The position numbers were made by a program, and so were the translations under genes. DNA of 64,000 bases from Lysobacteraceae bacterium CU05-9. Its GTDB lineage: Bacteria; Pseudomonadota; Gammaproteobacteria; Xanthomonadales; Xanthomonadaceae. The notes under the pieces were generated by a model, which made no database searches, was not told the origin of the DNA, and saw only the letters and a list, made by a program, of their open reading frames with translations. The stretch is from positions 62,001 to 126,000 of the forward strand of contig SWJS01000004.1 of NCBI GenBank assembly GCA_007556525.1. Direction: 5' to 3'. Below, in pieces: positions 50,268 to 59,638 of the stretch (position 1 is its first letter; each line of letters opens with the position of its first letter).

Positions 50268-50380
50268 TTTTACATTTGTGACAAAACGATGCGTTTTTCA
50301 CCGTTTCGGTGCCATTTCGGTGGCGATTTGGTGGCGTTTCGCAACCAAACTGCATCAGATTGACACGATTGTGTCACCAC
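50268..50380. repeat. Composite intergenic block A with two ACA-NN-TGT dyads
   Basis: A dyad core ACATTTGT (50272-50279) followed by ACAAAACG, the hairpin CACCGTTTCGGTG, GTTTCGCAACCAAACTGCAT, and the dyad TGACACGATTGTGTCA (50361-50376), centres 93 bp apart. The same order of elements recurs at 53467-53567 and 58247-58357 with few changes, so this is a dispersed repeat of about 110 bp. Confidence 0.8.
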
Positions 50381-53466: not shown

Positions 53467-53723
53467 TGTTACGTTTGTAACAAAACGATGCATTTTTCAC
53501 CGTTTTGGTGTCATTTCGGTGGCGTTTCGCAACCAAACTGCATCAGATTGACACAATTGTGTCACCACGCGCCGTGTGTTTCATTCGAGGGCGGACACAA
53601 ATGTAGCCATTGGACACACTTGTGGCCACGCGCACAGAAACATTTGTTGCTGACAGAAACATTTGTGACGGCATAGACGATCACGCCGCGCCGGGATGGC
53701 TTCCGGCGGTTACAAATGTGTCC
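53467..53723. repeat. Dyad array B (seven ACA-NN-TGT dyads)
   Basis: Dyads at 53467-53482 (TGTTACGTTTGTAACA), 53549-53564 (TGACACAATTGTGTCA, perfect), 53593-53608, 53612-53627 (GGACACACTTGTGGCC), 53635-53652 (CAGAAACATTTGTTGCTG), 53654-53671 and 53708-53723. The first two bracket the same ~100-bp composite seen in A and C. Centres of copies three to six are spaced 19, 24 and 19 bp. The array ends 15 bp before the fabH terminator. Confidence 0.85.
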
Positions 53724-55635: not shown

Positions 55636-57504
55636 TTAACGGACTTCGATTGGAATCTCGGACCAATCCTCGATACTGCCGTCCTCGCCGACCATGCGCA
55701 GACCCAGCCATTGCGTGCCCTTCGCGGTAGATGCCGGGACCGTTAATTCACCTGAAAAACCAACGTTCGGCTGATTCGGATCATTGGAGATTGGCCACGC
55801 CGTCTTCGACGAGAGGTTGTTTGAACCATAGGTCAATGAGCCGACACTGCGGCCATTGAGCAATGTTTCCATACCCTTCAGCCCTACGCCGTCCTTGATG
55901 GCCCAGCCCGTAATTTTCAGGGGTTCGCCGGCTTTGACCGATGCGCCTGAAACCGGCGTATCAATCCAAGCCATCACCGGTGTTGTGCAGGCTGCGCCGG
56001 CAACCGGCGCCTTGGTCAAACGGAACAGCAGGAACCGTTGCGCACCGTGATCGATGTTTACGACCGTTGGTGCAGGAAGTGGGCCAACCATTTTGCAAAC
56101 TGCGTGATAGCGATCCACCAAATGTTTAAGTTGCACGTCGGTTGCACCAATCACCAACAGATATGGTTGCTCCTCTGTCGCTTTGGAGTGCGTCGTCAGC
56201 AAATTCCAGATCGCGAGTTGCGGTGCGCGACCATGGCGACGGTTCAAATCGTGATCAAGCACCTCGATGTTCGGGTTAGACAACGCAAAACCGAGTTCGG
56301 AACCAATTTTGAAATTGTCGGCAAGAATCTTCGTATTCGGCGGCATTTGCGCGAGCTCAGCCTCAACCTTCTCTGCCAGCGGCTCCCAACCTGCAAAGTT
56401 ACTGGCATACAGCTTCGAGCCGGCTGCCTGTTCGCGGACCGACGGAATCGATACCGCGACATAGTATGCGAGCAGCGCAAGCACGCCAAGTGACGAAGTC
56501 ACCCAAATCAGTTTGCGCAACCACGGCTTCATGATCTCCAGCGCACTTGGCAAAAGCGGCAACAACGCGACGTAACCCGGCAACGGCCAGTGGAAGCTCA
56601 CGCGTTCGGTATCGGTAAAAAACCCCAACACAAAGAAGCCCAAAACAACGAGGCCACCTAGGAGTGCGAAGTAGCGTTTTTGGACGGAATCGTCCTTGCG
56701 GAAACGCCACGCCAACCAAATGAATGTCGCGAACAGCAACGGTGTGACGAACGCCGCTTGAATGGCGACGAAGCTGATGCCATCAAAATGAAACGCCCAC
56801 GGATGGCGGTCGACCAACTGGAATCGCAGACCCGCATCGGCGTGATCCACGTTCCACCAAATCAGCGGAATCCACGCAGCCGCACCCATCGCAATCGCCA
56901 CGATGACCCGCATGTCCTTCAACGCGCGACGTCCTTCGGGAATCATCAATAATGCAATGAACCCAAAAACAATCACCGCCGCAAACCTGTAGTGGCTCAA
57001 CGCACCAATCGACAACCCGAGCGCCAATTCAATGACGGTCGCTTCGTCGACGTTTCGTAGCAACTTCGAGCCCGCATCGATACAGAGCAACGTGGCGAGC
57101 GCCATCAGCACGTCCGGCAGCGCCATGATGCCGAGCGTTCCCGCGAGTGGCAGCAGCAGCGTAAACGTCGCGGCGATGTAGGATTCCTTGATCCCGATTT
57201 CGCGTCTCGTAATCCGCATTACGAGGAACGGCAGCATCGCGGAAATGATCAGGAATGGCAGGCGCATCGAGATGGCGTTATTGCCACCGAGCGCAACGCC
57301 GATGCGGTTGAGCCACGCGGTCAATCCGGGCAGGTCGGAATACGCGAGTGCCAGGTGCTGCCCTTCCTGCCAGTAGAAAACCTCATCCACAAACGGAGGC
57401 AATCGTGAGGCGACAAAAAGCTTCAGGACCATCACGACTGCAAACACGATGTAGAACATCTGGCGGGCGCGATCGGTCGCGTACGTATGGGCGGCCGAAT
57501 TCAT
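55636..57504 (-). CDS. GT39-type glycosyltransferase with extra C-terminal domain
   Basis: 622 residues. The N-terminal half is a polytopic membrane protein of the PMT/ArnT superfamily: first loop PPFVDEVFYWQEGQHLALAYSDLPGLTAW has the acidic residues expected of lipid-phosphate-sugar transferases, and many helices follow. About 385-505 is a soluble periplasmic domain. The last ~100 residues (TPVMAWIDTPVSGASVKAGEPLKITGWAIKDGVGLKGMETLLNG...EDWSEIPIEVR) look like a beta-sandwich, Ig-like module not usual in ArnT. Probably modifies a cell-envelope glycan or lipid. Monocistronic. Confidence 0.8.
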   Translation of the reverse strand: MNSAAHTYATDRARQMFYIVFAVVMVLKLFVASRLPPFVDEVFYWQEGQHLALAYSDLPGLTAWLNRIGVALGGNNAISMRLPFLIISAMLPFLVMRITRREIGIKESYIAATFTLLLPLAGTLGIMALPDVLMALATLLCIDAGSKLLRNVDEATVIELALGLSIGALSHYRFAAVIVFGFIALLMIPEGRRALKDMRVIVAIAMGAAAWIPLIWWNVDHADAGLRFQLVDRHPWAFHFDGISFVAIQAAFVTPLLFATFIWLAWRFRKDDSVQKRYFALLGGLVVLGFFVLGFFTDTERVSFHWPLPGYVALLPLLPSALEIMKPWLRKLIWVTSSLGVLALLAYYVAVSIPSVREQAAGSKLYASNFAGWEPLAEKVEAELAQMPPNTKILADNFKIGSELGFALSNPNIEVLDHDLNRRHGRAPQLAIWNLLTTHSKATEEQPYLLVIGATDVQLKHLVDRYHAVCKMVGPLPAPTVVNIDHGAQRFLLFRLTKAPVAGAACTTPVMAWIDTPVSGASVKAGEPLKITGWAIKDGVGLKGMETLLNGRSVGSLTYGSNNLSSKTAWPISNDPNQPNVGFSGELTVPASTAKGTQWLGLRMVGEDGSIEDWSEIPIEVR

Positions 57505-57650
57505 GGAGCTATGTTACCTGAACGCCCGTGACTGCGTTGTTGCGGTTGTCGTGCTTTTTGGGGTTTTGTTCGATTCTCGTTAATGTGACACAGTCCAAAC
57601 TATCGTTAACGGCCAATTCATAGGCTGGTTTTTTCCTCGGGAGAGAAATC

Positions 57651-58172
57651 ATGAAACTCAAACTAGCTTTGGCCGCGTCCGCTCTACTCGCTCTGAGTGC
57701 GTGTGCGACGATGCCGCCTGAACCACTGCGCGGTGAATTTTCGCGCATTTCACCTAATGACGCGCAGGCTCGTGACTACACGGGTTCGACCACGATCTGG
57801 GGCGGTGTGATCGCTCGCACCACTCCAATGCAGGGCCAAACCTGCTTCGAAGTCGTCTCGACGCCATTGGATTCGCAAATGCGTCCTCGCGAGCTGCGTG
57901 ACGAAACCGCCGGCCGCTTCATGGCCTGCCGCGCCGGCTTCTACGATCCAGCAGTTTTCGCAATGAACCGTGAAGTCACGTTCCGAGGCCGCATCAACGG
58001 TTACTCGGAACAAAAAATCGGCGACTACACCTACCGCTACCCAAAAATGGACGCCGACACGATCTATCTGTGGGGCAAGCGCGTTGCACGTGATCCGTAC
58101 CCATACGGTTACGGTATGTACGGCTCACGCGGTTGGGGCTGGGGCATGGGTTGGGGCTGGCCGTACTGGTAA
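57651..58172 (+). CDS. Slp-family outer-membrane lipoprotein
   Basis: 173 residues. Ribosome site GGGAGAG, lipobox LLALSACATMP. The middle follows the Slp/YeaY pattern: GEFSRISPNDAQARDYTGSTTIWGGVIARTTP, TCFEVVSTPLDSQMRPR, GRFMACRAGFYDPAVFAMNREVTFRGRINGYSEQKIGDYTYRYPKMDADTIYLW. The C-terminus is a Gly/Trp/Tyr-rich tail (GYGMYGSRGWGWGMGWGW). Such proteins are often starvation- or stress-induced; here only the family is clear. Ends at a terminator followed at once by dyad array C. Confidence 0.88.
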   Translation: MKLKLALAASALLALSACATMPPEPLRGEFSRISPNDAQARDYTGSTTIWGGVIARTTPMQGQTCFEVVSTPLDSQMRPRELRDETAGRFMACRAGFYDPAVFAMNREVTFRGRINGYSEQKIGDYTYRYPKMDADTIYLWGKRVARDPYPYGYGMYGSRGWGWGMGWGWPYW

Positions 58173-58205
58173 TCGTCGCGTCGCGCCTTTTGCCGCTTCT
58201 CGAAA

Positions 58206-58241
58206 CGCCGGGCACTCGCTGCTCGGCGATTTTGTTTTTCT
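58206..58241 (+). terminator. Rho-independent terminator after the Slp-type gene
   Basis: CGCCGGGC (58206-58213), loop ACTCGCT, GCTCGGCG (58221-58228), eight pairs with one G-U, then ATTTTGTTTTTC. Confidence 0.85.
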
Positions 58242-58246
58242 TGGGG

Positions 58247-58502
58247 TGACACAATTGTGACAAAACGCGTCACTTTTCCCCGTTTTGGTGGCGTTTCGGA
58301 ACCATTTCGCAACCAAAGTGCATCACTTTGCATCCGATTGACACAATTGTGTCAGCGCGCGCAGAGGCATCTCCACCGCTGTCCACAATTGTGGGGAATG
58401 ACTACATTTGTGGACCATCGTGCGGAAACATTTGTAACCACCGGAAACAAATGTTTCCGCGCACACAGAAACATTTGTTGCTGACAGAAAGAATTGTTTC
58501 TG
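58247..58502. repeat. Dyad array C (eight ACA-NN-TGT dyads, 43-bp period)
   Basis: Dyads at 58247-58262, 58339-58354 (TGACACAATTGTGTCA, perfect), 58381-58396, 58400-58415, 58424-58439, 58442-58459 (CGGAAACAAATGTTTCCG), 58466-58483 (CAGAAACATTTGTTGCTG, identical to a copy in array B) and 58485-58502 (CAGAAAGAATTGTTTCTG). Centres of copies three to eight are spaced 19, 24, 19, 24, 19 bp. The array fills the gap between two convergent genes, starting 6 bp past a terminator and ending 12 bp before the next stop codon. No gene lies in it. Confidence 0.88.
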
Positions 58503-58513
58503 CAGTGTGGAAA

Positions 58514-58693
58514 TTACTTCTTGTCGCGCTTCTTGTTTTCTTCAGCAAATGCCTGGAATTTACGGAGAATCTCATTCTCCTGACGCAGGCGGTCGCGTGC
58601 CTTAAGCAGCAGCGGCAGATCCGCATCGGTTAGTTCGTCGTCGGGGATTTCGCCGGCGAGGATTTTCTCGAAGCGACTACGTTCCTTGGGCAT
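58514..58693 (-). CDS. Small charged protein, 59 residues, unknown
   Basis: ATG at 58693, TAA at 58516-58514, starting 4 bp after the HIT gene stop. The sequence is highly charged and probably helical: MPKERSRFEKILAGEIPDDE, then LTDADLPLLLKARDRLRQEN and a Lys-rich tail. A region near 28-45 could form a short coiled coil. The spacing and coding-like composition support a real gene co-transcribed with HIT and recR. I do not recognise the family. Confidence 0.7.
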   Translation of the reverse strand: MPKERSRFEKILAGEIPDDELTDADLPLLLKARDRLRQENEILRKFQAFAEENKKRDKK

Positions 58694-58697
58694 GAGG

Positions 58698-59036
58698 TTA
58701 CGCGCCGAAGGTGCCGAGGGGGGCGCCGCCGAGAAGGTGGAGATGCATTTGGTAGACGGTTTGGCCGCCGTGATCGTTGCAGTTCATGACGACGCGGTAA
58801 CCGTCGGAGGCGATGCCGATTTTGCGGGCGTAGTCGGCGGCGGTGAGCATGAGTTCACCCATGATTTGGGCGTCGTCGGGAGTGGCGGCGTCTAAGGTGG
58901 GGAGAGTGGTTTTGGGGACGAAGAGAATGTGGACGGGCGCGAGAGGTGCGATGTCCTTGAACGCGATGATGCGGTCGTTTTCGAAAACGATGTCGGCGGG
59001 GATTTCGCGGGAGATGATTTTGTGAAAAATCGTCAT
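58698..59036 (-). CDS. HIT-family hydrolase (HinT-like)
   Basis: 112 residues from the ATG at 59036, overlapping the recR stop (ATGA). Histidine-triad nucleotide-binding protein: TIFHKIISREIPADIVFENDRIIAFKDIAPLAPVHILFVPK and the triad near the C-terminus, QMHLHLLGG, with DHGGQTVY before it. Likely a purine-nucleoside phosphoramidase such as HinT. A longer open frame upstream overlaps recR and is rejected. Confidence 0.93.
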   Translation of the reverse strand: MTIFHKIISREIPADIVFENDRIIAFKDIAPLAPVHILFVPKTTLPTLDAATPDDAQIMGELMLTAADYARKIGIASDGYRVVMNCNDHGGQTVYQMHLHLLGGAPLGTFGA

Positions 59037-59638
59037 GATTCCTCCGTTAGTTCTGAGCGGGTGCCGAACGCGTGCGAGAGTGTGCCGCGGTCGATGTATT
59101 CGAGTTCGCCGCCGAGTGGGACGCCGTATGCCAGGCGCGTGGCTTTGATGCCGATTTCGCGGGCGATGCTGGCGAGGTAGTGTGCGGTCGCCTCGCCTTC
59201 GATGGTGGGGTTCGTCGCGATGATGACTTCGACGACTTCGTCGGAGCGCATGCGGTCTTGCAACTTGTCGATGCCGAGTTCGCCGGGACCGATGCCGTCG
59301 AGTGGCGAGAGCTTCCCGTGCAACACAAAATACTTCCCGCGATAGCCGGTGGCGGCTTCGATGGCGAGTCGGTCCGATGGCGTTTCGACGACGCACAGAG
59401 AGTGAGAGTCGCGAGAGGCGGAGGAGCAGATCGAGCAGACTTCGGTTTCGGAGAAGTCACGGCATTGCGTGCAGTAGTCGATTTCCTTGACGGCGCGCGC
59501 GAGAGAGTCGGCAAGTCGTTGCCCGCCATCGCGCTCACGTGCGAGCACGTGATACGCCATGCGTTGCGCGGACTTCGGACCAACGCCCGGCAGCACGCGC
59601 AATGCATCGATGAGTTGTTCGAGTAGCGGCGAACTCAC
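59033..59638 (-). CDS. recR: Recombination protein RecR
   Basis: 201 residues, GTG start at 59638. Part of RecFOR; forms a ring on DNA. Helix-hairpin-helix LPGVGPKSAQRMAYHVL, zinc finger CTQCRDFSETEVCSIC, Toprim domain with VVETPSDRLAIEAATGYRGKYFVLHGKLSPLDGIGP. It follows ybaB-type and dnaX genes, a highly conserved order. Confidence 0.96.
   Translation of the reverse strand: MSSPLLEQLIDALRVLPGVGPKSAQRMAYHVLARERDGGQRLADSLARAVKEIDYCTQCRDFSETEVCSICSSASRDSHSLCVVETPSDRLAIEAATGYRGKYFVLHGKLSPLDGIGPGELGIDKLQDRMRSDEVVEVIIATNPTIEGEATAHYLASIAREIGIKATRLAYGVPLGGELEYIDRGTLSHAFGTRSELTEES

Follow-up and report, generated by a model that had tools for sequence, protein, structure and literature searches.

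Dispersed palindromic cassettes in Lysobacteraceae bacterium CU05-9 and their probable role as targets of an IS3-family-like element

IS1397 and ISKpn1 are reported to insert into the palindromic units of Escherichia and Klebsiella, and the accessible part of that report places the specificity in the transposase (PMC1525189). Together with ISPsy8, they are IS3-family elements with palindromes as targets, and the sources, so far as accessible, leave the target choice of the transposase open. BIME-2 elements are reported as gyrase sites, and the gyrase motif of E. coli has a GC period of 10.75 bp according to the available text of PMC6379681.

A preliminary description of the array considered here knew of no described element like it. 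However, dispersed palindromic units targeted by IS3-family elements have been described, as the accessible part of PMC1525189 states. For the cassette family itself, no earlier description was found in the literature by title or abstract.

Organization of the array and its cassettes

The window is the whole stretch of 64,000 nucleotides that was analysed. Within it, the intergenic gap 58173-58513 separates two convergent genes and holds, in order, a terminator-like site, an A-type element (58247-58354) and the array of cassettes B6, B1 and B3. Genes were called with a simple codon-usage script. The features are as follows, strand being given for the genes and the terminator-like site.

57651-58172, plus strand: upstream gene, a 173-aa ORF for which codon usage points to a later start at 57711; its start is presumably lipoprotein-like, a label given by eye with no database
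58206-58228, plus strand: terminator-like site that follows the upstream gene and is not part of the array; 9-bp stem, then a T tract
58247-58354: A-type element, end dyads TGACACAATTGTGACA and TGACACAATTGTGTCA with centres 92 bp apart
58380-58417: cassette B6, 38 bp, dyads 58385-58392 and 58404-58411, 19 bp apart
58422-58460: cassette B1, 39 bp, dyads 58428-58435 and 58447-58454, 19 bp apart
58466-58502: cassette B3, 37 bp, dyad 58471-58478 and degenerate dyad 58490-58497 (AGAATTGT)
58514-58693, minus strand: downstream convergent gene, a 59-aa ORF (codon-usage gene call), 11 bp from the array

The coordinates first described were confirmed, with octamers at 58385, 58404, 58428, 58447, 58471 and 58490 and centre spacings of 19, 24, 19, 24 and 19 bp. 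The preliminary description read all six as ACA-NN-TGT cores, which holds for five; the sixth is AGA-AT-TGT and is missing from strict lists. It also found no conservation outside the cores, and here it was wrong, as the 19-bp pairs are cassettes with inverted-repeat arms that recur elsewhere in the genome. The inverted arms of B6 (58381-58392/58404-58415) match at 92% and those of B3 (58466-58483/58485-58502) at 83%, and the outer arms of B1 (58422-58435/58447-58460) are perfect over 14 bp (100%). A second copy of B6 lies at 91802-91839 of contig C12, with 97% identity over 38 bp and unrelated flanks. Similarly, B3 forms doublets with B1 or B2 at 24 bp, with differing linkers, in the window (53597/53640) and at loci L058, L060 and L089. 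The window contains a further array of the same kind.

53591-53674: second 19/24/19 array, cassettes B2 and B3; second dyad ACACTTGT, with one mismatch

The 19-bp step is the distance from arm to arm within one cassette of 37-39 bp, and the 24-bp step is a cassette junction with a variable linker. The 19/24 alternation arises because an arm-to-arm step within a cassette is followed by a step from cassette to cassette. The alternation had been called strict, but 24 bp is a preferred inter-dyad distance and not a strict one: it occurs, with differing linkers, in 7 of 16 neighbouring units separated by at most 75 bp, this array contributing two of these cases, and the remaining nine show 22, 32, 36, 41, 43 (three), 59 and 69 bp. 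The statement that the array is not a simple tandem duplication was borne out. Intrinsic terminators are absent from the array: only two sites qualify in 58100-58600, and they overlap at 58206-58229, upstream of it. In Rfam, the region 57500-59100 has two matches with E up to 1, both under the gathering score.

ACAWWTGT occurs 14 times in the window against 4.1 expected, a number that none of 100 shuffles reaches; ACANNTGT alone is not in excess there (21 against 14.8 expected, with nine shuffles reaching 21). A genome scan for the spacing, as proposed initially, came out far over chance, with 46 places for ACAWWTGT-N2..30-ACAWWTGT and none for the reversed pattern. The centres of these 46 pairs are 19 bp apart in 34 cases, 24 bp in six and 18 bp in three, the last only in period-9 arrays; 22, 32 and 36 bp occur once each, and 20 bp never. 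Furthermore, TGTNACAWWTGTNACA with at most one mismatch has 71 sites in the genome against none in the control, and a sequence-only profile of 46 units, for which 150 of 696 candidates were scored, has at least 121 matches at E ≤ 0.1 when both strands are counted. The merged count is at least 51 places in at least 42 loci, typed from the profile, TGTNACAWWTGTNACA and homology matches; both figures are lower bounds that do not include every unit split by the insertion sequence (IS) described below. The family has the properties of dispersed intergenic palindromic repeats, with 46 pairs, 38 of 46 clusters between two predicted genes, and sharp edges.

Two 16-bp near-palindromes make up each cassette, with exactly 19 bp between their centres. 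In the commonest types they are arranged as GGHHACAWWTGTDDCC - 3 bp - GGHHACAWWTGTDDCC; subtypes differ from this at some bases, and among 46 a single C stands at a D position of the layout. The aligned set comprises 46 units, after 5 of 51 pairs were dropped as A-type or other (L050:1643, L062:2720, L080:2135, L086:2357 and L058:4611); 16 of the 46 are B1 and, under a strict rule, six are D. Since the octamers served to pick the units, the conservation of ACA/TGT among them is partly selection.

The aligned units support two local dyads better than a single long hairpin. The former pair 80.4% of cells and the latter 77.5%, and the covariation is 0.274 against 0.204 (0.126 and 0.127 when shuffled), with subfamilies inflating both values. 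The hairpin potential noted in the preliminary description is real: every pair can fold, and 58378-58506 folds as RNA with z = -7.8, none of 200 shuffles being as stable. On its own, the third cassette folds weakly (z = -2.0, a stability reached by 9 of 200 shuffles).

An insertion sequence at the cassette axis

Fourteen of the 26 readable contig ends stop about 120 bp into one and the same IS, seven into its left end (IRL) and seven into its right end (IRR); the two ends of C6 and of C7 consist of N. IS ends were sought in the window, in loci L044-L063 and from L076 onward, and all 14 found are contig ends. The flank is a half unit in 13 of the 14, ten of the D type and three of the B1 type. 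In all 13 half-unit flanks, the IS starts exactly 7 nt past the octamer (at most one mismatch), which is the two-fold axis of the unit. Allowing for a 3-bp duplication, this places the IS in the middle of the 11-nt spacer. The final three bases of the IRL flanks are gat (twice), atc (twice), ttc, ggt and agt, and those of the IRR flanks are atc (twice), gat (twice), gaa, acc and aag. A complementary 3-bp duplication can be paired for six of the seven left and right ends, the pairing of gat with atc being ambiguous. Once joined, the empty sites are 39-bp units with 19-bp spacing, and one B1 unit split by the IS was rebuilt from the flanks at the end of C1 and the end of C5. The exception is the start of C5, which does not lie in a unit; its partner by elimination, the start of C10 (a B1 half), shares no duplication with it.

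With about 60 unit axes in 2.35 Mb, the chance that a random insertion lands on one of them is 2.6e-5, and the position of the IS at unit axes is therefore not due to chance. The IS prefers D, which provides 10 of 13 flanks and 6 of 46 aligned units; this array holds no D. Among the 14 ends found, none lies within this array, an A element or a period-9 array. Insertion at a fixed position with target duplication is seen for the D and B1 types and not for B6 or B3.

IS3-family elements carry OrfA and OrfB with a DDE integrase core, have TG...CA ends and produce a short target duplication. The IS has TG...CA ends and a 3-bp duplication, and its ends encode an apparent OrfA start (MKSKSKPNQKSNAGRYSAE) and OrfB end (HYYNHWRRHSANGLQSPHKFEQSAKLNKAV). 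The C-terminal 30 aa of OrfB match rve_2 and rve_3 at E values of 0.05 and 0.08, below the cut-off. Among the eight plasmid matches listed, two are annotated as IS3 family transposase and the others are without annotation. Judged by these 30 residues and the inverted repeats, the element appears IS3-family-like.

The target duplications also suggest contig joins, namely of the C12 start with the C14 start and of the C1 end with the C5 end. Alternative joins are suggested between the C8 or C2 end and the C15 start or C3 end, and between the C2 start or C15 end and the C10 or C12 end.

Sister elements, genomic location and lineage range

Besides the A-type element next to the array, the window contains two others.

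53467-53564: second A-type element, end dyads 82 bp apart
50268-50376: third A-type element, end dyads 93 bp apart

The interior of the element at 58247-58354 consists of GC/AT modules of about one helical turn. Its A/T signal peaks at 10.8 bp, a strength reached by 1.5% of shuffles in the band 10-11.2 bp and by 20 of 100 over all periods. Fourteen A elements were picked by eye, the other candidates being B or period-9 combinations, and the related dyads at their ends are 60, 71, 72 (two), 82 (six), 83 (two), 92 and 93 bp apart, in steps of about 10.5 bp, with GC/AT modules of roughly one helical turn inside the elements. Together with 9 and 19 bp, these distances fit 9 + 10.5k (R = 0.94, p = 0.0008 for six merged values); the intra-element distances entering this fit were selected by us, and other distances occur. 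In this fit, k = 0 would correspond to the period-9 arrays, k = 1 to the B and D cassettes, and k = 5-8 to the A elements. Pooled, the 14 A elements have an A/T period peak at 10.9 bp that none of 100 shuffles matches, a sum inflated by shared ancestry; singly, 4 of 14 pass 5% in the 10-11.2 band. Slippage of modules of 10-11 bp may account for the quantised lengths. A helical A/T period is absent from this array (72 of 100 shuffles as strong) and from nine B arrays pooled (60 of 100). The protein filament on one DNA face that had been suggested is not supported, given this absence and the steps themselves, as 19 and 24 bp correspond to 1.8 and 2.3 turns.

All types could in principle form one helically quantised layout of identical dyads 9 + 10.5k bp apart, read genome-wide by a lineage-specific dimeric protein as a chromosome-organising or supercoiling element, with the IS3-type transposase parasitising k = 1. 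We regard this as doubtful.

Two side observations concern these repeats. One predicted coding ORF on the minus strand (L050:2626-3057) contains a period-9 octamer array, at position 476396-476421 of contig C8 (G000; L050:2897-2922); the residues encoded by the array are TIVTNVTNVT, within a linker rich in proline. A small HTH gene, which we take to be NadS/HigA-like, stands between two A-like direct repeats at L076:1377-1443 and 2041-2112. A transposon-like reading of this A-like pair (C8:375426/376093) was rejected, as no transposase was seen between its members.

The 46 octamer clusters in the stretches read comprise 17 in convergent, 14 in co-directional and 7 in divergent gaps, 5 in predicted genes and 3 without a neighbour. 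Convergent gaps are favoured, with 17 of 38 clusters against 8 of 59 control gaps (Fisher p = 0.0009); this comparison leaves out eight of the 46 clusters, namely the five in predicted genes (some of them lone octamers) and the three without both neighbours. The control gaps, of at least 40 bp, come from 16 stretches of 10 kb picked regardless of elements. The loci are unevenly distributed across contigs (p = 0.009), the dnaA contig having 8 against 2.8 expected. Around the dif-like site, no locus lies within 160 kb against 5.7 expected, a radius picked after seeing the data, and two lie within 210 kb against 7.5 expected. The ori-proximal gradient hinted at by the dnaA contig and the dif gap was rejected, since markers near elements occur at all distances from the origin. 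For this mapping, 22 protein pieces were placed on two single-contig relatives and 20 besides dnaA were used; one piece (C9), weakly placed in one genome only, was dropped. Contig C14, near the origin in both relatives, has no intact place listed; at its start it carries a D half, the unit there being interrupted by the IS.

Conservation of the array in close relatives, which the preliminary description had made a condition, was not found: none of 29 relatives matches the array region at E ≤ 0.001. A repeat family confined to one lineage would give just this result. Among 296 further genomes of the family, the pair pattern has one match in each of seven, which is the control level, the reversed control matching nine genomes 11 times in all; the genomes searched include no second one of the genus. 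A phage, plasmid or viral origin was rejected. At E ≤ 0.01, 58220-58520 matches neither plasmids nor phages. The exact 19/24 triple is absent from viral contigs and occurs in one stretch among genome contigs, in a search that may leave out the own genome. That stretch, L043:7570-7620 of the actinobacterium Boudabousia marimammalium, has an octamer triple at 24 and 19 bp within a hairpin; we read it as a lone hairpin, with three octamers in the 8 kb read.

Interpretation and comparison with known systems

Quite probably, the array represents three members of a palindromic cassette family that is dispersed in the genome and specific to the lineage, and the pair axis of these cassettes is the specific target of an IS3-family-like element that the genome itself carries, the central 3 bp being entered and duplicated. 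The cassettes, their sharp-edged dispersal, their spacing of exactly 19 bp and the position of IS ends on D and B1 axes are read from the DNA sequence. The transposase itself would read the paired dyads, and B6 and B3 may also be targets. Arrays would form when cassettes land side by side or are copied as doublets, which would give the spacing of 24. On this reading, the 19-base spacing is the mark of a target site and not of a new kind of machine.

An unlikely competitor, though the strongest, holds that the elements are chromosomal wrapping or binding sites, like BIME-2 for gyrase, that those in convergent gaps absorb positive supercoils, and that the IS merely exploits them. A gyrase wrapping site would be recognized by GC phasing of about 10.75 bp across 130 bp, together with cleavage by gyrase in vivo. 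The pooled A-element peak at 10.9 bp, near the 10.75 bp of the E. coli gyrase motif (PMC6379681, accessible part), would agree with this, as would the fit of the A end-dyad distances to 9 + 10.5k, the preference for convergent gaps and the empty 160 kb around the dif-like site. However, the B arrays, this one included, are without a helical period, and only 4 of 14 A elements pass singly, with shared ancestry inflating the pooled signal. Moreover, the distances are author-selected, their quantisation may be module slippage, the ori-ter gradient is absent and the radius is post hoc. We give a still smaller chance to the cassettes being RNA hairpins at transcript 3' ends, acting in stability or attenuation as ascribed to REP. 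The strong folding of the array, its location 11 bp past the stop of the convergent gene and the occurrence of cassettes at gene ends speak for hairpins, but pairing is not maintained at the two middle bases of the arms (fully complementary in 9 of 42 units against 13.9 expected), no T tract follows the array hairpins, and 7 of 38 clusters lie between divergent genes. In addition, a loop would tolerate shifts in spacing, yet 20 is unseen and 18 is confined to period-9 arrays.

Paired dyads are usual for BlaI/CopY-type repressors. Operators of a dimeric regulator with an ACA-NN-TGT core would match the array in that core, as in the CopY family (TACANNTGTA; PMC7253601, accessible part), but we consider them very improbable. 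The genome has no Penicillinase_R (PF03965) match at E ≤ 0.001, and copies are spread over at least 42 loci, where they often lie at the 3' ends of genes. Chromosome sites of the Noc/ParB kind are the least credible reading: the 16-bp palindromes are spread across the chromosome and absent near dif, and TGTTACAAATGTAACA, as we take it, resembles parS, but the single ParB_N match lies beside parA- and rsmG-like genes and no second ParB is present for a second specificity.

On the favoured reading, that of cassettes as IS targets, the genome offers an IS/target pair legible from sequence alone, the axis of the 19-bp dyad pair being cut base-exact in 13 of 14 ends. The half-sites, the spacing rule and natural variants are all given here. 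Moreover, the sister dyads spaced by whole turns make it possible to ask whether proteins bind such repeats as layouts or whether the repeats are merely carried.

The comparison with known repeats is as follows. GTAG/CGTC REPs and BIMEs, for example GTAGGAGCGCGCTCGCGCGCGA of Xanthomonas campestris, are likewise palindromes of 20-40 bp, mostly intergenic, with a preference for convergent or unidirectional gaps and, in X. campestris, regularly spaced clusters, as far as the accessible parts of PMC3733652 and PMC2817692 describe them. In contrast, the family here has no tag above chance and no RAYT, and its units consist of two halves that are dyads in their own right. In 46 units, at up to 16 nt from the octamers, GTAG occurs once, CTAC twice, CGTC three times and GACG twice, against random expectations of 1.7, 1.2, 7.9 and 8.7. 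RAYT (Y1_Tnp, PF01797) has no candidate in this genome, whereas 12 have a match in the set of 20 genomes searched, to which this genome belongs. Membership in the GTAG/CGTC REPs and a RAYT-driven REP were both rejected, with no tag and no Y1_Tnp candidate; a RAYT may have been lost in the past. REPINs, the RAYT-tied paired REPs of PMC3116915 (accessible part), similarly have two palindromes at a set distance per unit, whereas the cassettes here are without RAYT and 37-39 bp in all. The gyrase motif of BIME-2 resembles the pooled A elements in period (PMC6379681, in the text available), whereas the array here is without phasing.

The closest likeness is to PU/REP with IS1397 and ISKpn1, which, in the accessible part of PMC1525189, are short dispersed extragenic palindromes entered by IS3-family elements. 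The repeat sequence here is unrelated to theirs. The dyad pair 19 bp apart, the entry at its axis and the 3-bp duplication characterize the present system, although, going by that part of the source, the position and duplication of IS1397 may not differ. Collectively, by analogy, the cassettes would work like the palindromic units that host IS1397 and ISKpn1.
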